Of a stretch of 64,000 nucleotides of DNA, positions 12,489-47,487 are shown in pieces. How positions within the stretch are numbered: the first letter of the stretch is position 1; the number at the start of each line of letters is the position of its first letter. Source of the DNA: Candidatus Kuenenia stuttgartensis. Its GTDB lineage: Bacteria > Planctomycetota > Phycisphaerae > Phycisphaerales > SM1A02. A program made the position numbers and the translations under genes. The stretch covers positions 1 to 64,000 of the forward strand of contig CAMDMA010000016.1 of NCBI GenBank assembly GCA_945902075.1, read 5' to 3'. Under the pieces are notes generated by a model. The model saw nothing but the letters and a program-made list of their open reading frames with translations. It was not told where the DNA came from and searched no databases.

Positions 12489-13490
12489 TTAGTCGGCTTT
12501 GTGAGACGCCGCAGCGCGTTCGCCAGCGCGGATCGCAAGCGGAAGTCGGTTCATTGCGGGCGGGGTCGGGCAGGTCGCAAATGCTGTAAATGCGCAGGGG
12601 GGATTGGTCGCGCGGTTGAAATCAATTGTTGTCCGTCCGCCAACCGGTTTCTCGATATCAAGAAATCGTCCGCCGCCGTAGGTCTCCGTACCGTTGGTGG
12701 TATCGCCGAACACGACAAACAGCCGTCCATTCGCCCCTGGAGTCGCGACGAGTTCACACTCGATGCCGTGCACCTGGAGGCGAAGCCGTGCCGCGATCGG
12801 CTGGGTCTCGACAAAGCCCATGACGTTGGTGATCGCAACGGTTGTCTCGGCCGCGAGTGCGTCCGCAACCGTGCTTCTCAAAACCGTGCCTTCTACAACC
12901 GAACCTTCTACAACCGTGCCTTCTACAACCAAACCTTCTACAACCAAACCTTCTACAACAAGGTTCGGATCAAACGCAAACAGCTTGAGTCCGTCAAACT
13001 GGCTTCGGATGGCACTCGCGTTGTCTCGCACCCGAAGCGCCAACGCGCCGTTTCGACGCACAGCCGTGATCATCAGTGGCCCATTTCGTAGGACGCTTGG
13101 CGTCCCGCGATCATCGACAACAAGGGCGCACTCCCGATCCGCACAGGGCACACCGTCAAGAGTCACGTCGGGAACGCGTGCACGGAAACTGATGCTGTCC
13201 TCCTGCACGGTGAACGCTCCAATGCAACCCGCGCTCGCGTGGGCGTAGCGGAGTGTGCAGGCGGGGTCCGAGCCGATCGTGAACACGCCATCGGTGAGAA
13301 AGTCGAGCCCGACAAGCGTCAGCCATCCATCGTCAGCCGTGAGGAGCCGGACGCGCTGCTCGAACCACACATCGCGATCACCTTGGGTGAATCCGGCTCG
13401 TAGCGCGTTGTGCGCAGTCGGGCCACTCGGCGTGGAGGCACAGGCGAGCACGATCAACGGAAGCAGAAAAAAGAGAGGTGTAGCGGTCAT
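12489..13490 (-). CDS. DUF1684-family lipoprotein with inserted VVEG-x repeats
   Basis: A 333-residue protein with a lipoprotein signal (MTATPLFFLLPLIVLACAS, Cys ~17). The mature part resembles DUF1684: an early DDGWLTLVGLDFL segment, FTIGSDP, and a C-terminal GRLFVVFGDTTNGTETYGGGRFLDI region with NRATNPPCAFTAFATCPTPP close to the end. The middle is interrupted by a pentapeptide array (VVEGL, VVEGL, VVEGT, VVEGS, VVEGT, ~residues 178-202) encoded by 15-bp tandem DNA repeats at 12886-12960, where relatives continue directly with a short linker. The function of the family is not known; it is sometimes placed with FHA-like or carbohydrate-active folds, which I cannot confirm. Confidence 0.8.
   Translation of the reverse strand: MTATPLFFLLPLIVLACASTPSGPTAHNALRAGFTQGDRDVWFEQRVRLLTADDGWLTLVGLDFLTDGVFTIGSDPACTLRYAHASAGCIGAFTVQEDSISFRARVPDVTLDGVPCADRECALVVDDRGTPSVLRNGPLMITAVRRNGALALRVRDNASAIRSQFDGLKLFAFDPNLVVEGLVVEGLVVEGTVVEGSVVEGTVLRSTVADALAAETTVAITNVMGFVETQPIAARLRLQVHGIECELVATPGANGRLFVVFGDTTNGTETYGGGRFLDIEKPVGGRTTIDFNRATNPPCAFTAFATCPTPPAMNRLPLAIRAGERAAASHKAD
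12886..12960. repeat. In-frame tandem repeat, 15-bp unit, five copies
   Basis: Five copies of a 15-bp unit (nnnccttctacaacc on the plus strand, with variable first triplet gtg, gaa, gtg, aaa, aaa) inside the DUF1684 gene. On the coding (minus) strand each copy adds five residues of the VVEG-x type, so the frame is kept. Confidence 0.97.
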
Positions 13491-26684: not shown

Positions 26685-27557
26685 TTAGGCGACCGAGCGG
26701 ACCTTCATGGTCGGCGTGCAGGTACCTGTCGTTTCGTTCGAGCCACAGCAGCCGAAGCCGGAGTTGCTGAAGTTCGAAGTCGTGAAGTTGGGCGACGAGG
26801 TCGTTTGGGTGTTGCCCGCGGAAGGTGTCTCGGTTCCCGAGGTGTGCGTGGTTCCGGTGTTCGGCGTCCAGGCGTTGCCGCCGTTAAAACCGTTGAAACC
26901 GTTGAAGCCGGGGAACGAGTTCCACGGCGTGTTGTTTGAGCCCGTGTTCCAACCAGTGTTGTTCCAGCCCGTGTTGTTCCAGCCGTTGTTCGCTGTGAAG
27001 TTCGGCGTCCAACCGTTGAAGCCGTTGAAACCGTTGAAACCGTTGAAGCCGTTGAAGCCGGGGAACGAGTTCCACGGCGTGTTGTTTGAGCCCGTGTTCC
27101 AGCCCGTGTTGTTCCAACCGTTGTTCGCTGTGAAGTTCGGCGTCCAACCGTTGCCGCCGTTAAAGCCGTTGAAACCGTTGAAACCGTTGAAACCGGGGAA
27201 CGAGTTCCACGGCGTGTTGTTTGAGCCCGTGTTCCAACCAGTGTTGTTCCAGCCAGTGTTGTTCCAGCCGTTGTTCGCTGTGAAGTTCGGCGTCCAACCG
27301 TTGAAACCGTTGAAGCCGTTGAAACCGTTGAAGCCGGGGAACGAGTTCCACGGCGTGTTGTTTGAGCCGTTGGTCCAACCGGTGGTGCCGCCTTGGTACC
27401 CCGGAGTCCATCCGAACGGAGTCGGGCGGTTCCACGCGGTGTTCCAGCCAGACGAATTGGTGAAGCCGTTACCACCGCAGCAGTCGCTGCTTTCCGTACC
27501 GGGGCAGTTGTTGCAGGTTGTGAACGGCGACCAAGCTGAGAACGTCGGGTGGTACAT
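26685..27557 (-). CDS. Low-complexity Asn/Gly/Trp/Phe tandem-repeat protein
   Basis: A 290-residue protein made of tandem repeats. The N-terminus (MYHPTFSAWSPFTTCNNCPG) carries Cys pairs, including CNNC and DCCGG; there is no signal peptide. From about residue 64 to 220 follow four copies (45-50 residues each) of a unit that begins GSNNTPWNSFPGFNGFNGFN, continues WTPNFTANNGWNN and ends with TGWN steps. The C-terminus is Thr/Ser-rich and has a second Cys cluster (GFGCCGSN, TGTC). The minus-strand assignment rests on the terminator at 26629-26663 and on the Cys clusters; the opposite strand also stays open because the repeats contain no stops. I do not recognise a family. Composition resembles structural or adhesive repeat proteins, but that is only an analogy. 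Confidence 0.75.
   Translation of the reverse strand: MYHPTFSAWSPFTTCNNCPGTESSDCCGGNGFTNSSGWNTAWNRPTPFGWTPGYQGGTTGWTNGSNNTPWNSFPGFNGFNGFNGFNGWTPNFTANNGWNNTGWNNTGWNTGSNNTPWNSFPGFNGFNGFNGFNGGNGWTPNFTANNGWNNTGWNTGSNNTPWNSFPGFNGFNGFNGFNGFNGWTPNFTANNGWNNTGWNNTGWNTGSNNTPWNSFPGFNGFNGFNGGNAWTPNTGTTHTSGTETPSAGNTQTTSSPNFTTSNFSNSGFGCCGSNETTGTCTPTMKVRSVA
26886..27368. repeat. Large tandem repeat, 135-150 bp units, four copies with internal 9-bp steps
   Basis: Copies are marked by the conserved ccacggcgtgttgtttgagc block at 27348, 27207, 27072 and 26922 (spacings 141, 135 and 150 bp). The differences between copies are whole numbers of codons and reflect changing numbers of the internal 9-bp Phe-Asn-Gly step and 15-bp Asn-Asn-Thr-Gly-Trp step. 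Confidence 0.95.
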
Positions 27558-27747
27558 GAGGGATTTCGCTCCGTAGATCGTGTGGATTTCCAACCGACGC
27601 GCGTGGACCATCCGCGACGCGCCTGGCGTGAAGCACGGGATCGGATTCGTCGAGCGCGGACTTGTGCGGTGTTGGCGCGAAATACAGAAATGTTCGATTC
27701 GCGACGAGCGCGCTGCGCAAATATTGCGCGAATCCACGAGCGGGTGG

Positions 27748-29034
27748 TCAGTCGAGCGAGCGGACGACGAGTTCTTCAGCCACAAGTTCCCCAGCCACAA
27801 GTTCCCCAGCCACAAGCTTTCCACCGACGAGCGTCGCGCTCGGAGCAACGCTTCCCCACTCGTAGGCGAGGGCGCGTTCGTCGCATGTTGGGAGAATTGC
27901 GAGATCGGCGCGCTTCCCAACCTCAATCGATCCCGCGTGCCGTTGGATCTCAAGTGCGCAGGCAGCGTTCCAGGTTGCCGCAGTGATGGCTTCCGCATGA
28001 TCGAATCGATAGAACCGCGCAGCAAGCGCGATCGCAAGCGGCATGGAGGTCATCGGGCTTGACCCTGGATTCGAGTTCGTTGCGATCGCGACCGCGCCGC
28101 CTTGATCGACGAGCGCACGACCATCTGCAAAGCGCAGATCAAGCGAGAGCCCACAGCCGGGAAGCAGCACTGCAATCGACGGGCTGCGTGCCACGATTTC
28201 AAGGGCATCCTTTGATGTGGCTTCGAGGTGATCGACCGTGCGCGCGCCGAGTTCGATCGCATCCGCGAGGAAGCCGAGCTCGTTGAACTGGTCGACATGT
28301 GCGCGCAGCGGGCAGCCAAGGGCACGGGCGGCGTGAAAGAGTTGCCGCGCGCGGGTGCGACTCCACGCACCCTTCTCGCAATACACATCGCAAGGAATCG
28401 CGCCGAATGCGCGCACCACGGACGGCAGCATCTCTTGTTCGACAAGATCGCAATACACGTGTTCGTCGCCGTCGATTGCATGTGCGCCGAGAAACGTCGC
28501 TTGCACGATGCCAGGATCGTTCGCTGCGACCGCAGTGATGGCGCACAGCATGCGGAGCTCCGCATCGAGCGCGAGGCCGTAGCCGGACTTCACTTCGACG
28601 TGTGCCGTTCCGGTGGCACGCATGAGCGCAAGGCGCGCGCGAAGATTGCTCGCGAGCGTCTCGACCGTCGCATCGCGGACCGCACGAACGGTCGACATGA
28701 TGCCGCCACCCGCCGCGAGGATGTCAAGATACGGCGTGCCGGCGAGTCGCATTGCCATCTCGCCGTAGCGTTCGCCCGCGGAGCACGCGTGCGTGTGGCA
28801 ATCGATAAACGCCGGAAGAACGACGCGGCCGCTGAGGTTGACCACGCGGTCGGTTGGTCGACGGGGAGATTTTCCGGAAGTGTCGAGCGCAGAGATCATT
28901 CCGCGATCGATCACAATCTCGCCATCAGCGAGAATGCCGAGTTCGCGCATCGCCGCGCCGCGCCTCGGGCCGTCACCAGTGGCGGCGGAGGCGAGCGTCA
29001 GAATGCGTCCGTTTGTGAGGATCAGTCGGGACAT
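27748..29034 (-). CDS. hutI: Imidazolonepropionase (histidine degradation)
   Basis: A 428-residue amidohydrolase that opens the imidazolone ring to formiminoglutamate. It starts MSRLILTNGRIL with the family's N-terminal beta domain, then has the metal-binding DCHTHACSAGERYGEM motif, the HVEVKSGYGL segment, RAHVDQF, VDHLEA and the end motif IATNSNPGSSP, all typical of HutI. Length matches (about 400-420). The last ~20 residues are an extension of the type LVAGELVAGELVAEELVV, encoded by 15-bp repeats, not usual in the family. Other hut genes are not in this window. The gene diverges from the SixA-like phosphatase gene, with 89 bp between the start codons. Confidence 0.93.
   Translation of the reverse strand: MSRLILTNGRILTLASAATGDGPRRGAAMRELGILADGEIVIDRGMISALDTSGKSPRRPTDRVVNLSGRVVLPAFIDCHTHACSAGERYGEMAMRLAGTPYLDILAAGGGIMSTVRAVRDATVETLASNLRARLALMRATGTAHVEVKSGYGLALDAELRMLCAITAVAANDPGIVQATFLGAHAIDGDEHVYCDLVEQEMLPSVVRAFGAIPCDVYCEKGAWSRTRARQLFHAARALGCPLRAHVDQFNELGFLADAIELGARTVDHLEATSKDALEIVARSPSIAVLLPGCGLSLDLRFADGRALVDQGGAVAIATNSNPGSSPMTSMPLAIALAARFYRFDHAEAITAATWNAACALEIQRHAGSIEVGKRADLAILPTCDERALAYEWGSVAPSATLVGGKLVAGELVAGELVAEELVVRSLD
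27766..27825. repeat. In-frame tandem repeat at the hutI 3' end, 15-bp unit, about four copies
   Basis: Copies of cacaagttccccagc (two exact at 27781 and 27796, two degenerate at 27766 and 27811) encode the LVAGE-type pentapeptide extension at the C-terminus of imidazolonepropionase. Confidence 0.9.
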
Positions 29035-29123
29035 CGCTTGCGGATTGTCGCATGAACGGTGAAACGCGTTACGGTGCGCACGGTCATCGCTTCGCGGGCT
29101 GCATTTTCGAGGGAGTATTTTCG

Positions 29124-29822
29124 ATGGACCTGATTCTCGTCCGCCACGCGCGTGCTTTCGATCGCGACGCGTCGGCCTGGCCGGATGACTCGCGCCGACC
29201 ACTCACCGCAGAGGGGCGGGAAGAGTTTGTTCGGCTCGCAAAGCGGCTTCGGCGCATCTATCCAACGGTGGATCTGCTTGAATCAAGTTCGTATACCCGC
29301 GCCTGGCAAACAGCACAGCTCCTCGCCGAGCACGCCGGATGGCCAAAGCCGTCGCGGCTTGAGCGGCTTGAGGGAAACAACGCAAGCGGCTCCGCGAACG
29401 GCGCTTCGGCTGAGGCGGTCCAGTTGGAATCGCTCCTTCGCACCGTCCGTGCCCTTCGTGGAATCGGCGCGGTGGCGTGGGTCGGACATGAGCCGCTTCT
29501 CTCGCGCTTCGCCTCGCAGCTCCTCGCAGGTTCGCCAGGCGCCGTACGTATTGCTTTCAAGAAAGGCGCTGCGATCGCGCTCCGGCTTCCAGAAACTCAC
29601 AATCACGATGAGCACGATGAGCACGATGAGCACGATGAGCACGATGAGCACGATGAGCACGATGAGCACGATGCCGAACGAGCTCGGGCGGGCAGAGGTC
29701 ATGAACCCCCGATGAACGCAGCGCACAACGCAGCCTCCACGCTCCGCGCAGACTTGCTCTGGATGGCAACCCCCGCCATGGCCCGCGCGAAGCGGGGGGG
29801 CAAGCGCGGCGGCAGGAAATAG
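29124..29822 (+). CDS. SixA-like phosphohistidine phosphatase with His-Asp-Glu repeat tail
   Basis: A 232-residue histidine-phosphatase-superfamily protein. Catalytic features: LVRHARAF (RH motif, residues ~5-9), SSSYTRAWQTAQ (Arg of the phosphate pocket) and VGHEPLLSR (second His). The closest match is SixA, which removes phosphate from phosphohistidine in HPt domains; normal SixA is about 160 residues. Here the core ends near residue 160 and is followed by seven copies of His-Asp-Glu, then a short Arg/Ala-rich tail whose last codons lie in a 21-bp repeat array. The acidic His-rich stretch could bind metal ions, which is inference. ATG 29124 is used; the frame opens further up at 29052. Confidence 0.85.
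   Translation: MDLILVRHARAFDRDASAWPDDSRRPLTAEGREEFVRLAKRLRRIYPTVDLLESSSYTRAWQTAQLLAEHAGWPKPSRLERLEGNNASGSANGASAEAVQLESLLRTVRALRGIGAVAWVGHEPLLSRFASQLLAGSPGAVRIAFKKGAAIALRLPETHNHDEHDEHDEHDEHDEHDEHDEHDAERARAGRGHEPPMNAAHNAASTLRADLLWMATPAMARAKRGGKRGGRK
29604..29666. repeat. In-frame tandem repeat, 9-bp unit, seven copies
   Basis: Seven exact copies of cacgatgag, coding for His-Asp-Glu, plus a partial eighth copy. Confidence 0.98.
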
Positions 29823-42498: not shown

Positions 42499-43014
42499 TT
42501 ACGCGATGCGCGCTCGGACATTGCCATCAAGTTCAGCAAGTTCGATGAGCGCTTGCGAGGCCAGCGAGACAATCCACGCTGGCTCCGCAGCGCAGAGAAT
42601 CAGCAGCAGGTCCTCAATAGACTCGCGGCTTGCCCGCGTATCAAGGATCCGGTGCTGAACCAGGCATGCGCTGACCACCATCCCGAAGGCAAAGAGTCCC
42701 GCACGGCGCTTGGCCGGATCGGCTTGTTCCGGCCCGAGATCGCGCTTCGCCCGCTGCTTCATGGCCCTAAGTAATTCGAGCCCACTTTTCGTTGTGAGAT
42801 GATGTTGCGCATCCCCAAACCCCGAGAGCGGGGACTCGCTCGCGGTCATGGCGTCGTCGATGACGGTTGCCGCAAGCGCTGGATTTGAAAGGTGCGCGCA
42901 AAGATCCGAGATCGGGTCACTTCCGACGCGGTGCGCTGCAGCGAGCAACCTCCACATGTTGGAGGCCACATGCGACCCGTCAAGATCATCATTTGCGTGT
43001 GACTGCTCATTCAT
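42499..43014 (-). CDS. Small protein following a sigma factor, unknown function
   Basis: A 171-residue protein that I do not recognise. It is predicted mostly helical, with two short hydrophobic patches (AGLFAFGMVVSACLV and LLLILCAAEPAWIVSLA), but no clear signal peptide. Its ATG overlaps the stop of the sigma factor gene at 43011-43598 by 4 bp, so the two are translationally coupled. The same arrangement, sigma factor followed by a ~150-170 residue helical protein starting Met-Asn, occurs again at 46075-47487. Lacking a zinc-finger motif and a transmembrane helix, it is not a typical anti-sigma factor, though that role would fit the position. Confidence 0.75.
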   Translation of the reverse strand: MNEQSHANDDLDGSHVASNMWRLLAAAHRVGSDPISDLCAHLSNPALAATVIDDAMTASESPLSGFGDAQHHLTTKSGLELLRAMKQRAKRDLGPEQADPAKRRAGLFAFGMVVSACLVQHRILDTRASRESIEDLLLILCAAEPAWIVSLASQALIELAELDGNVRARIA

Positions 43015-43598
43015 GGCCGGAGTGCCTCCATGAGACGAAGAATCTCGCCCTCAATCTCTGCTTCTGGAATGCCATCTCGATCAAGCAGATCGAAAAATGC
43101 CTGCCGTAGTTTCCCAGCAGCCGTCCGAACCATCGTGGCCGCTTCCTTGGTCGACACTCCAAATTCTTCGATCAACGTCGCATAGGGAACGCCGTGGAGG
43201 TAATGCCGCTCGAGAATCTCCCAGTGCGCGCGTTGACCGCGGCGATCGCACGAGGCCCGCGCCCGCTCAAGCGCGCGTCGAACGAGCGAAAGCCCCCATT
43301 CGCGCTCGAACTGTCGTTGCGCAGCCTCGCGCTCGTCCGCAGGCTCCGAATCAAGTGCTTGCGGTGAACGCTGCATCTGGCGTACGACTTCGCGCAGGTA
43401 GAACAGGAATCCATTCATCAGCCAACGCCGCAGCGGGAGTTCCGAGTCAAGCCAGCGCTCAAAGAAGTCGGTTGAGGACACGCGATCGGCGAAGAATCCT
43501 TGCGTAAGTTCATGGGGCTCGCCTGCGGAGCGGTAGCTCGACCCGCGGAGAGAGCGATTGAAGGTACGCCGGACGCACCGCAGGAAGCGGCTCGTCAT
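43011..43598 (-). CDS. Planctomycete-type sigma-70/ECF-like sigma factor (copy A)
   Basis: A 195-residue protein with the two DNA-binding regions of a compact sigma factor. Region 2 is recognisable as GEPHELTQGFFADRV and LPLRRWLMNGFLFYLREVVR, the pattern of a planctomycete ECF group (DLTQEFFARL...RGRFRSFL in relatives). Region 4 is a helix-turn-helix: LHGVPYATLIEEFGVSTKEAATMVRTAAGKLR. A paralogue lies at 46750-47487 and aligns along the whole length, with identical LPLRRWL-NGFLF core. That copy has 46 more residues at its N-terminus; here the reading frame upstream of the ATG at 43598 stays open for 22 codons without a start codon, so the N-terminus may be truncated. Confidence 0.82.
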   Translation of the reverse strand: MTSRFLRCVRRTFNRSLRGSSYRSAGEPHELTQGFFADRVSSTDFFERWLDSELPLRRWLMNGFLFYLREVVRQMQRSPQALDSEPADEREAAQRQFEREWGLSLVRRALERARASCDRRGQRAHWEILERHYLHGVPYATLIEEFGVSTKEAATMVRTAAGKLRQAFFDLLDRDGIPEAEIEGEILRLMEALRP

Positions 43599-43748
43599 CG
43601 TTGTACGCAGGAAATCTTTCCAGTTTCTGAGATTCCTCGCGCCGCGAGGCGATGGACTGCTTCCTCAGAACTTGAGCCGTGTCTGGTTGCCAAGTGGATG
43701 GCGGCGGCTTGAAAAACCATACTTGCTTCACCCTGATGCAAGTTCTTT

Positions 43749-43753
43749 GAGGA
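43749..43753 (+). promoter_or_regulatory. Ribosome-binding site of the first lipoprotein gene
   Basis: GAGGA eight bases upstream of the ATG at 43761. Confidence 0.7.
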
Positions 43754-43760
43754 TAGAAAC

Positions 43761-44099
43761 ATGCGTAACAAGTACATGCGGGCAGCGCTTCCGGCCCTCG
43801 CGTGCGCCACATTGGCGTTCGTGTTTGGTGGATGCAATCCCCGCTCGAACCACACTGGTTTCGAGCATCAAAATCTCAATCTTGAGGACTCGCAGGTCGA
43901 CTGGATTCCCCACACCTACTTTCGTGGTGTGAACAGCGAGTCGTTCACGGCGTACCGCGCCCCAAGCGTCACGGAGACCAACGACATTGCGGTCACGCAG
44001 AACCCAACGCCGCTGACGGCCAATCACATCCATGGCCCTACAAACACGATCGGCCTCGGCCAGTCGTATTCGCCCGTCGCCAGCCAACCGAAGTATTGA
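43761..44099 (+). CDS. Small lipoprotein of unknown function
   Basis: A 112-residue protein with a clear lipoprotein signal: MRNKYMRAALPALACATLA then lipobox GGC (Cys ~25). The mature part is short (~85 residues), polar, rich in Asn, Thr, Ser and Pro, and probably little structured; it contains no Cys after the lipid anchor. No family is recognised. It is divergent from sigma factor copy A (162 bp apart) and is followed after 31 bp by the FlgO-like lipoprotein gene, so the two lipoproteins probably form one unit. A pair of small lipoproteins with FlgO recalls FlgO/FlgP/FlgT of Vibrio, but this protein does not resemble FlgP in the parts I can compare. Confidence 0.75.
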   Translation: MRNKYMRAALPALACATLAFVFGGCNPRSNHTGFEHQNLNLEDSQVDWIPHTYFRGVNSESFTAYRAPSVTETNDIAVTQNPTPLTANHIHGPTNTIGLGQSYSPVASQPKY

Positions 44100-44130
44100 T
44101 CGCCTGCTCATGACGCAGGAAAGGTTCCAT

Positions 44131-44853
44131 ATGCTTAAGAATCTCACATGCGCGACCATCGTTGCCGCGTCGATTGCTGCCCTCGGATCGTCTGTTGGCT
44201 GCACCAATTCCAGGAATGTGGTTGTGCTCGACGGCTGCACCCAGCAGACCTGTGTTGATGCTGATTACATCGAGACGTCATATAAGGCCATGAAGTATCT
44301 CATCGGCAATGTCCGAGGGAACATCATGGGTGACGATGCGTTCGACCAATCTCGACCAGTGATTTGGGCGACCACAGTCGACCTGAATAACTACGGGAAA
44401 ACATCGAACTTCGGTCGTCTCATGGGTGAGTCGCTTGCGATCGCCATGCAGAATCACCGCAAAAACAAGTTGATTCAGATGACGCTCCGTCAGGGCAATG
44501 TTCCGATCACCGCAGATGGCGAGTTCCTGCTGACCCGTGATGCGAAGGATCTTGCGACGAAGTTCAATGCAGGTGCCGCGCTCGTCTCGACCTACAGCGT
44601 GACGATCGATCGCGTCTACATTCAGTGTGCGCTCATCAACGTGGACCAGAACGCGGTTGTGGGTGCGGTGCAATTCGATATGCCGCTAGGCCCACGTACC
44701 GAGGCCCTCATCAAGGGCATCACCTTTCCGTCCGAGGCGGGTCGCCGTGAAGCTGTTGCAGCCAACTGCGCGAGGTGCTGCACTGGAGGTCGCGCTTCAC
44801 GAGGCGCGGGCAACCGATCGACTGGTGCATCCGGGGATCGCGCGAGTGTTTGA
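44131..44853 (+). CDS. FlgO-like lipoprotein, 3' end replaced at a junction
   Basis: A 240-residue frame with a lipoprotein signal (MLKNLTCATIVAASIAALGS, lipobox SVGC, Cys ~24) and an AGGAAAGG ribosome-binding site. Residues ~45-190 match the FlgO domain, known from outer-membrane flagellar-ring proteins of Vibrio: SYKAMKYLIGNVRGN, VIWATTVDLNNYGKTSNFGR, DGEFLLTRDAKDLATKF and AGAALVSTYSVTIDRVYI. After about residue 200 (near 44730) the frame runs through DNA that, in another frame, encodes the N-lobe of the kinase gene, and the translation turns Arg/Gly/Ala/Cys-rich. This suggests that the original C-terminus was lost by a deletion that joined the two genes. Confidence 0.75.
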   Translation: MLKNLTCATIVAASIAALGSSVGCTNSRNVVVLDGCTQQTCVDADYIETSYKAMKYLIGNVRGNIMGDDAFDQSRPVIWATTVDLNNYGKTSNFGRLMGESLAIAMQNHRKNKLIQMTLRQGNVPITADGEFLLTRDAKDLATKFNAGAALVSTYSVTIDRVYIQCALINVDQNAVVGAVQFDMPLGPRTEALIKGITFPSEAGRREAVAANCARCCTGGRASRGAGNRSTGASGDRASV

Positions 44854-45934
44854 TGCGGGCGTTGCACTGCAGGGCCATGCGTTTGTCGCCTTCGAGTACA
44901 TCGATGGTCTGACCCTCGAGGAGTGGCGAAAGCAGCACCGACCGTCGTTCGAGCGGCGGCTTGCGGTACTTGGGGACATCTGCGCTGCGGTGCAATACGC
45001 GCACGACCGCGGCATCATTCATCGGGATCTGAAGCCAGCGAATGTCCTCGTCGGAGAGGGCACATCGGCCAAGCCGCGCGGGGTGGTCATCGACTTTGGT
45101 GTTGCAGCCCTCACGGTCGATGATGTCACGACCGCCGATGGGCTGCATGTGGGAGATCGGGTTGGCATTCTTGAGACCATGGCGCCCGAGCAACTCACGC
45201 TCGGTGCGGCATCGGACGCCCGGAGCGATCTCTACTCACTCGGAGTGATCCTGTATTGGCTCGTGACCGGTCGTCCACCCTTTTTTCGATCAAGTGATGA
45301 AGCTCACCGTTTGGTCCAGATTGCGCGACAGATCCGCGAGGAGCCGCCGCCCGTTGTTCGCAGAGCGGCACTCGATGCGATTCGGCTCTCGAACTCGCAG
45401 CTCGCCGACCTCAATGCGGTCATTGCCAAGGTCTTGGCAAAGAATCCAGAGGAGCGCTATCGATCGGTGGCCGACTTCGCGGATGAGGTCGCTCGGCTTC
45501 GTGAGGGAACGCCGACGAACGCAACGGCTCCGAAGGTTCGATACCGCATGCGACGTTTCGTCCATCGATACCGCGCGGTCACGATTGCGGCAACCGTGAT
45601 TGGAATGATGCTCTCAGCCGCGACAGCGGTTTCGCTTGAATTCGCATGGGCGGAGCGTGCGGCACGGCTTGAGGAGTCGGCCGCAAAGGTCGCGCGGGAC
45701 GACGCGATTGACGTACTTCGGAAGGCCCTGCGCGCGATCGTGAATGATGTTCGCGCCGTCGGAAACCCACCGGAGTTGATGAAGCACTGGCCACAGGTCA
45801 TTGAGGCATTTGGTCGAGCGTACGGTCCGAATGACCCTCTCGTCGCGGCGGGATTTGAGCCGATTGGGCAAGGAGAAGCTGAGGAGGCAATCCGGCAACT
45901 CGTGGATCACGGAGCCGCGTCATCGACGTTGTAG
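44747..45934 (+). CDS. Ser/Thr protein kinase lacking its glycine loop; probably a truncated gene
   Basis: A 395-residue frame starting at GTG 44747, inside the FlgO-like gene. The kinase core is present from strand beta-3 on: VAVK (its Val is the GTG, so Lys is residue 2), alpha-C HEARATDRLVHPGIARVFD, catalytic HRDLKPANVLV (~residues 89-99), VIDFGVA, MAPEQ and the RSDLYSLGVILYWLVTG helix. The glycine-rich loop that precedes VAVK is missing: a stop in this frame lies about 57 bp upstream. A transmembrane helix (AVTIAATVIGMMLSAATAVS, ~285-304) and a coiled stretch follow, as in planctomycete receptor-like kinases, but the usual TPR tail is cut short. Activity is doubtful without the loop. Confidence 0.7.
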   Translation: MKLLQPTARGAALEVALHEARATDRLVHPGIARVFDAGVALQGHAFVAFEYIDGLTLEEWRKQHRPSFERRLAVLGDICAAVQYAHDRGIIHRDLKPANVLVGEGTSAKPRGVVIDFGVAALTVDDVTTADGLHVGDRVGILETMAPEQLTLGAASDARSDLYSLGVILYWLVTGRPPFFRSSDEAHRLVQIARQIREEPPPVVRRAALDAIRLSNSQLADLNAVIAKVLAKNPEERYRSVADFADEVARLREGTPTNATAPKVRYRMRRFVHRYRAVTIAATVIGMMLSAATAVSLEFAWAERAARLEESAAKVARDDAIDVLRKALRAIVNDVRAVGNPPELMKHWPQVIEAFGRAYGPNDPLVAAGFEPIGQGEAEEAIRQLVDHGAASSTL

Positions 45935-46074
45935 CGTCATCCAGAGACTGAAGTGTCATCCAACGCGCCAGTTCGAATCCTGGGCGGTGGACAACGACAT
46001 CGCATCAGTTGGTCGTGGGCTCGATCGTTTGAGAATCGTGCATCGCGTCTATCCGTGCGTACAGCCGCCGAGGC

Positions 46075-46533
46075 TTATGCGCTCGCGCGGAGAGGCATGC
46101 GCATCGCCGCGTGGAGCAGCCGTGCCCAATCAGAAGGCACACCAGAGGCAGCTGCGGCGAGTCGGGCATCGGCTTCGGCCGCTGTGTGCGAGACCAAAAG
46201 CCTGCGTCGATACACGATCGAACTCGCCTCCAGCAGTGCGAGCGAAACAGCAGCGAGTTCGCGTTCCGCGCTCGTTCCGTCAAGCCGCATCGTCTCGCAC
46301 GCGAGCCGTGCGAGCAGGAAATCCTCGTCGCATGCTTGACCTTCGAAAAACAGTGCGGCCGGATCTCCAACATCCGCAAGTGGCCCGTTTTCGATTGCCT
46401 CGCGCGACGGAAGAAGACCATCCCGCCGACGCGCACGATCGACCACGCGCGTAAGCAGCGGGTCGGTCTCTTCGCCGAGTGCGGCGAGAAGGCGGTGACA
46501 ATCGTTGTTGTTGTTGTTCGTGAAGTCGTTCAT
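46075..46533 (-). CDS. Small helical protein following sigma factor copy B, unknown function
   Basis: A 152-residue protein, mostly helical and rich in Ala, Leu, Arg and Glu, without a signal peptide or membrane helix. It begins MNDFTNNNNNDC, where the Asn run is coded by an AAC microsatellite. It lies 216 bp downstream of sigma factor copy B on the same strand, matching the order of copy A and the gene at 42499-43014, although the two small proteins are not obviously alike in sequence. No family recognised. A role in controlling the sigma factor is suggested by position only. Confidence 0.65.
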   Translation of the reverse strand: MNDFTNNNNNDCHRLLAALGEETDPLLTRVVDRARRRDGLLPSREAIENGPLADVGDPAALFFEGQACDEDFLLARLACETMRLDGTSAERELAAVSLALLEASSIVYRRRLLVSHTAAEADARLAAAASGVPSDWARLLHAAMRMPLRASA

Positions 46534-46749
46534 TCGCGTGGCTCATTTAAAACACATGAGCCGATCCCAATTCCCTTCAATCCCTCTGCGTCGCGCTCAA
46601 GCATCGGCCTGAGCGCGTTGTCTGTTTCCCTTCAGATCACCAGGATGTGCTTACAACTCTGCCTCATCGTTCACTTGTCTTGCTCACCACCCGGCTTTGA
46701 TCATCGTCGTGATCGCGATGTTCTCGGCGCGGCGGTTTGATTTTCTGCG

Positions 46750-47487
46750 TTAGCCCGGTTTCAGCGCACGCATCAGTCGTGCAACTTCATCGTCGAGTTC
46801 TTCCTCGGTCGCGCCGTCTTTCAGGAGCAGGTCCACCACGGCTTGGCGAAACCGGATCGATGCCGTTCGCACCATGCTCGCGGCCTGACCGCCTGTGACG
46901 TTGAATTCGTCCGAAAGCGCGGCATACGAAATGCCCTTCACAAAGTGACGCTCAAACATTTGCCAGTGCGCGTCGAAACCCTCCGTTGCGCATCGATCCT
47001 TTGCCGAGCTTGCCGCACTTCGCACCATCGACGCAGCCCAAAGTCGGTCGAACTCTTCCACGGCCGTCGCTGTCTGAGAAGTCGGCTCATCCGCGACGAC
47101 TGTTGGCATCGACTCGACGCGATCCGCTTTGCGGCGCCGCACTTGTTCCTGAAGGAAGAAGAGGAACCCATTGATCAGCCAACGGCGCAGGGGAAGGTTG
47201 CTCTCGATCCAGCGCTCGAAGTAGCCCACTTGGGCGAGCCTCGACGCGAAGAACCCAGACACAAGGTCACTCGGCGTCCCGAGCGAGCGGAAGCTCGAGC
47301 CGGCAACGTAGTTTCCGAGGGGTTCTGCGTAGGTCTGCATGACGTAGGCGTTGATTTTCGGGAGGCCCGCTGCACCCTGCGCCAACTGCGCGACGAGCCA
47401 GCCCCGCTGGGTGGCGGGAAAGGAGTCGCGCTTTTGCGGCGAGGTTGTTCGCTCCGGTGTGTCGTTCATTTTCCGCACATCGCTCAT
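46750..47487 (-). CDS. Planctomycete-type sigma-70/ECF-like sigma factor (copy B)
   Basis: A 245-residue sigma factor, paralogous to copy A at 43011-43598. Region 2: GTPSDLVSGFFASRL and ERWIESNLPLRRWLINGFLF; region 4: KGISYAALSDEFNVTGGQAA followed by SMVRTASIRFRQAV. The additional N-terminus (MSDVRKMNDTPERTTSPQKR) is charged. Alternative start codon at 47469 (MNDTPER). It is followed after 216 bp by a small helical protein. No anti-sigma zinc-finger protein is adjacent; in planctomycetes such sigma factors are often next to Ser/Thr kinases (family knowledge), and a kinase gene lies just downstream here on the opposite strand. Confidence 0.85.
   Translation of the reverse strand: MSDVRKMNDTPERTTSPQKRDSFPATQRGWLVAQLAQGAAGLPKINAYVMQTYAEPLGNYVAGSSFRSLGTPSDLVSGFFASRLAQVGYFERWIESNLPLRRWLINGFLFFLQEQVRRRKADRVESMPTVVADEPTSQTATAVEEFDRLWAASMVRSAASSAKDRCATEGFDAHWQMFERHFVKGISYAALSDEFNVTGGQAASMVRTASIRFRQAVVDLLLKDGATEEELDDEVARLMRALKPG

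Follow-up and report, generated by a model that had tools for sequence, protein, structure and literature searches.

Two paralogous sigma factor genes, each followed by a gene for a small protein, lie close together in the DNA analysed here (a stretch of 64,000 nucleotides, referred to below as the window). The initial annotation of this locus raised the question of whether the small proteins control the sigma factors, and if so by what kind of mechanism. We addressed it by comparing the locus with related genomes, by profile searches and by structure prediction.

The sigma factor genes and their surroundings

The gene sigB (46750-47487, minus strand), recognised from its orthologues, its predicted fold and the family profile, encodes an ECF-type sigma factor of 245 amino acids. 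Its partner gene smallB (46075-46533, minus strand), which encodes a protein of 152 amino acids related to a third type of small protein (type C, see below), lies 216 bp behind it, and this minus-strand spacer (46534-46749) varies in length among orthologues. The second pair consists of sigA (43011-43598, minus strand; 195 amino acids), a paralogue of sigB identified by its sequence and a weak TIGR02937 match, and smallA (42499-43014, minus strand; 171 amino acids), assigned by its AF2 fold and its position behind sigA; these two genes overlap by 4 bp. Between the pairs lies a plus-strand cluster composed of a gene for a small lipoprotein (43761-44099; 112 amino acids, lipobox FGGC, recognised by sequence), divergent from sigA, a FlgO-family lipoprotein gene (44131-44853; PF17680, E 5e-22, 78.6 bits against a gathering cut-off of 22.6) and the remnant of a Ser/Thr kinase gene (44738-45934; Pkinase, E 1e-28, the match beginning at profile position 43). 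Both sigma genes, both small genes and the cluster between them lie exactly where the initial annotation had placed them. A third sigma-small pair is present in the same genome at C1:95259-96517.

The paralogy of the two sigma factors, which was proposed from a shared LPLRRWL-NGFLF core, is borne out by a pairwise alignment (46% identity over 184 amino acids). The genome contains 13 sigma paralogues at E <= 1e-5, not two. sigA matches TIGR02937 weakly, over a span from region 2 to region 4 (E 7e-4; 19.3 bits against a cut-off of 42.9), as do other members of the sigma family; for sigB nothing in Pfam or NCBIfam reaches E <= 1. Such a curated cut-off sets a limit of detection and does not define an ECF sigma factor. 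The best PDB match of the sigma-family profile was SigL of M. tuberculosis (E 0.003), collinear over profile positions 26-206.

For structure prediction the sigB-smallB pair was modelled as one chain, the stop codons between the genes being read through as serine purely as a modelling device (P0008). The resulting AF2 model (pTM 0.61) has a disordered linker and gives no interface readout, so that it speaks neither for nor against a complex. Its sigma part (residues 7-205) matched AlgU, sigmaE, SigK and SigL region 4 with VIA Z of about 7-8.6; the AlgU alignment (residues 7-203) had a Z of 8.6, and residues 132-204 aligned to region 4 of sigmaE with a Z of 8.1 (rmsd 2.0, 69/69). In a Foldseek search the top 12 matches were all ECF sigma factors, each at E > 0.1, and fold comparison found the two-domain sigma2 plus sigma4 architecture in the model. 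We class sigA and sigB as ECF sigma factors because of the weak TIGR02937 matches, the SigL profile match and the AF2 fold taken together.

The sigA-smallA pair occurs in three other genomes of the genus (G003, G005 and G011), which were aligned with the locus at the DNA level. At its 5' end sigA falls short of the orthologues by about 290-300 bp, and the protein is without about the first 30 of their conserved residues; the orthologues in G005 and G011 carry FPSTNRGWIGEQL. A second deletion, of about 1 kb with its junction near 44740, has removed the end of the FlgO gene, the whole gene of a further lipoprotein (X) and the N-terminal part of the kinase, glycine-rich loop included, while a third has taken about 245 codons from the C-terminal part of the kinase. 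The native part of FlgO consequently ends near 44740 and the remainder is an out-of-frame tail, different from that of the orthologues in all three genomes, where the small lipoprotein also aligns at the DNA level. The two lipoproteins of the initial annotation are thus present, but FlgO has lost its end and another lipoprotein gene is missing in comparison with the relatives. Likewise, a Ser/Thr kinase does lie between the pairs, but its open reading frame is a remnant in which VAVK, HRDLKPAN and one hydrophobic segment are left, and of the glycine-rich and catalytic loops that mark a functional Hanks-type kinase it has lost the former. The kinase orthologues (684-725 amino acids) have a hydrophobic segment after the catalytic domain and then a long C-terminal region, which suggests that they are membrane sensor kinases. 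Since sigA, FlgO and the kinase are all truncated relative to the three genomes, this genome probably contains an A module in decay, or else a misassembled one. The sigB-smallB pair is intact and conserved.

Elsewhere in the window, the open reading frame at 26685-28037 contains many FNGFNGFNG / NNTGWNNTGWN tandem repeats, a SixA-like one at 29052-29822 has a long (DEH)n repeat, and another at 12489-13490 includes a VVEGLVVEGTVVEG repeat stretch.

Small proteins encoded behind ECF sigma factors

Searches of Pfam and NCBIfam matched neither smallA nor smallB to anything at E <= 1, and the two proteins show no similarity to each other, either pairwise or in a direct profile comparison. The small protein of type C, which follows the same kind of sigma factor in other genera, connects them: hhalign joins A to C at 2e-9 and B to C at 2e-6. 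On these profile alignments the three types are one family, linked through C, and the view that smallA and smallB are unrelated to each other was rejected. The conserved core of the family reads LKxxxK ... Y ... IAAAL ... H ... ISSQ.

HMM searches, which the initial annotation had recommended, matched the family to no known enzyme or anti-sigma model in Pfam or NCBIfam. Its remark that the small proteins lack an anti-sigma zinc motif and a membrane helix holds for the family at large: HxxxCxxC occurs in 0/88 members, and no 19-residue Kyte-Doolittle window exceeds 2.0 in any of the 88 (9 exceed 1.6). Neither a sequence model nor the HxxxCxxC motif of Class I (ASD/ZAS) anti-sigma factors was found. 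The supposed helical nature was confirmed for smallA, whose AF2 model (pLDDT 88.2, pTM 0.78) is all-helical with about eight helices. This fold has no significant match in the PDB (best Foldseek E 0.8); VIA Z did not exceed 5.7, the matches being designed and helical-repeat proteins, which is no more than helical bundles usually give, and a sequence search of the PDB with the family gave nothing below E 0.08.

Of 301 genomes in the order, 101 contain the family (E <= 1e-3) according to a profile built from the small proteins alone. The immediate upstream gene on the same strand is a sigma factor gene in 88 of the 90 loci examined, with a 4-bp overlap in 53 of those loci. Of the two exceptions, the one in G032 (L066) proved to be sigma-linked after all when a deeper profile was used, and the other, in G048, consists of several small-like genes in succession with no sigma factor. 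In the converse test, loci were chosen in named genomes (some of them the same as in the small-profile set) on two short sigma motifs alone, and a small gene was found directly behind the sigma gene in 54/54. Given both counts, the adjacency is far from chance.

Within the genus, sigB-smallB is present in 12 of 16 genomes, including this one. In a search of 343 genomes across the phylum, 24 had the family at E <= 1e-4, and these include several families outside the class. A lack of conservation beside such sigma factors in relatives, or an identity with known enzymes, had been named as what would speak against a role in sigma control; the adjacency counts and the gene fusions described below demonstrate conservation, and no known enzyme was matched.

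Several family members have unusual surroundings or architectures. A distant small-like branch matches mainly over the C-terminal half and has no sigma factor beside it; its proteins (L313 in G048:C67, and L307-L312) are 180-266 amino acids long, and four of them are encoded in a row in G048. One family member (L176 / L318, G036:C268) runs on into about 190 residues that resemble, by eye, a CYTH (triphosphatase) domain, an extension without a Pfam match. At another locus (L194 / L319, G367:C161) a small-family gene that follows a sigma gene is separated by about 50 bp from a second small-family gene facing it.

Kinase neighbours, fusions and correlated divergence

It was suggested in the initial annotation that planctomycete sigma factors of this kind are often linked to kinase genes, and the counts agree. 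In 160 Mb from 41 genomes of the order there are about 524 kinases, one per 305 kb, so that about 1.3 would be expected in 50 flanks of 8 kb; 17 loci had one (within 4 kb), an enrichment of about 13-fold. The kinase gene is directly adjacent in 14 of the 17, mostly on the opposite strand, as in the window. In L135, L144, L165, L214 and L224 a kinase gene is what follows the pair or fusion on the same strand. For the majority of pairs, the nearest 4 kb contain no kinase. The association is therefore real but not obligatory, and the kinase was rejected as a constant third component. The nearby Ser/Thr kinase that characterises ECF43-like sigma factors is accordingly present here, as a remnant, and in 17/50 loci, not at most pairs.

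In four genomes (G412, G662, G647 and G671; family f32) sigma factor, linker and small protein form one open frame, and the fusion gene of G662 runs at its end into an overlapping kinase ORF. The same family includes 26 related sigma factors without a small protein nearby, and a kinase, recognised by the HRDLKPxN motif in the fetched flank, is encoded downstream on the same strand of 18 of them. On the sigma tree, the small partner was gained or lost in only 4 changes. Distances among sigma factors and among small proteins are correlated (r 0.68; permuted maximum 0.13), part of which is explained by shared species history.

For most of the sigma paralogues in this genome no small protein adjoins, a count limited by five of them that end near a contig edge: on contigs C70, C11, C4, C2 and C22 of this assembly (G000) a sigma paralogue lies within 260 bp of the contig start, as if the sequence behind these genes were repeated or hard to assemble.

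The DAED-like motif contains at least two acidic residues in 87 of 100 linked sigma factors, so that a neutral replacement, an ECF43-like trait, was not found as a rule. sigA has EPHE at this position (two acidic residues), sigB has TPSD (one), and the sigB orthologues have T/S-x-x-D. No convincing shared promoter motif that would point to autoregulation was found upstream of the pairs: the top four-mer counts hardly differed from the maxima of shuffled sequences, and the less frequent outliers come from 6 loci each.

A putative soluble anti-sigma family

We favour, with moderate confidence, the reading that the ECF sigma factor forms a co-inherited two-gene module with a regulator of its own, a soluble, all-helical protein of the cytoplasm, and that in this module the small protein is most likely a soluble anti-sigma factor. 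It would probably be the private on/off control of its sigma factor and represent a new family of such controls. The small protein would bind its cognate sigma factor and hold it inactive, and where the genes overlap it would be made right after the sigma factor. A signal would then free the latter. In a good part of the loci this signal would probably come from the neighbouring membrane Ser/Thr kinase, phosphorylating either the small protein or the sigma factor.

A regulatory role is supported by the adjacency counts obtained from both directions, the 53 overlaps, the four fusions, the correlated distances and the few changes on the tree; a gene adjacent to, and co-inherited with, that of a sigma factor is one part of what a functional definition of anti-sigma factors calls for. 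The confident all-helical fold of a soluble protein without a zinc motif also suits this reading. Because 87/100 linked sigma factors keep the acidic motif, they are probably competent for RNA polymerase without phosphorylation and so would need an inhibitor; the small protein, which is soluble, encoded with the sigma factor and has diverged in parallel with it, would be the natural choice. We count against this reading that the greater part of the sigma paralogues of this genome are without an adjoining small protein, the distant branch without a sigma factor, the majority of pairs without a kinase within 4 kb, and the single acidic residue in the DAED-like motif of sigB.

Gene order and fusion fit a co-activator or chaperone equally well, as do the overlap and the correlated divergence. 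The small protein may thus be a positive partner (co-activator, chaperone or stabiliser) that the sigma factor needs for binding RNA polymerase or the promoter, permanently assembled in the fusions; the single acidic residue of sigB might be compensated by such a partner. We regard this as unlikely, since related sigma factors work without the small protein and have a kinase in the same downstream position, and most linked sigma factors retain the acidic motif. Moreover, dedicated partners encoded behind ECF sigma factors are usually inhibitors. Still less probable, in our estimation, is that the sigma factors are activated through phosphorylation by the neighbouring kinase, as in ECF43/EcfP, the small protein being an adaptor that joins the two. 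The enrichment of kinases near the pairs, the five loci with a kinase next on the same strand, the related sigma factors with a kinase directly behind and the Thr/Ser of TPSD in sigB would all suit such an adaptor. EcfP, however, has STTA in place of DAED and requires phosphorylation (PMC8999054), unlike the great majority of linked sigma factors with their acidic residues; in addition, a kinase is missing within 4 kb of most pairs, and the kinase in the window is without its glycine loop although sigB-smallB is intact. That the small protein is functionally unrelated and merely co-transcribed with the sigma factor is very improbable: a small-like branch without sigma factors does exist, and one member (L176) continues into the CYTH-like stretch, but the adjacency of 54/54 and 88/90, the four fusions and the correlated divergence all stand against it.

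The putative anti-sigma family resembles the soluble anti-sigma factors of other ECF sigma factors (NepR, RshA/RseA, CfrX and the candidate groups in PMC8999054), which are likewise small, cytoplasmic and encoded one-to-one beside the sigma gene. It differs from them in having no Pfam or NCBIfam anti-sigma match, no zinc motif, about eight helices and no significant PDB match. The tables of the 2022 review (PMC8999054) show no ECF group of planctomycetes whose partner is soluble and helical, and the primary ECF classification may mention the family. ECF59, ECF61, ECF62 and ECF217 of planctomycetes are listed in the review as kinase-linked. With these groups and with EcfP/PknT (ECF43) our sigma factors share the kinase behind the gene in the f32 relatives and the enrichment of kinases near the pairs; in contrast to them, it is the small protein that takes the place behind the sigma gene here, and the acidic motif has usually been retained. 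The single-chain form in four genomes recalls ECF sigma factors with C-terminal regulatory extensions (ECF41, ECF42, ECF56 and CorE), whereas the small domain is usually a separate protein and its stand-alone form matches no known family.

More tentatively, we propose a wider picture, which we consider possible rather than probable. Throughout the Planctomycetota, the small proteins would make up a new family of soluble anti-sigma factors that has its own fold; the family would duplicate together with the sigma factor, in some cases be fused to it, and relay signals from membrane Ser/Thr kinases to sigma factors. The kinase wiring, in this picture as in the reading favoured above, finds support in the 17 loci against about 1.3 expected, the 14 directly adjacent genes and the fusion gene overlapped by a kinase gene in G662, and there is a precedent for a kinase acting on an anti-sigma factor in PknB of M. 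tuberculosis (PMC8999054). The link between sigma factor and kinase is testable, as the same sigma lineage occurs with a kinase behind it, a small protein behind it, or both. Many planctomycete ECF sigma factors have no recognised regulator, and the small-protein family would supply a candidate switch for many of them.
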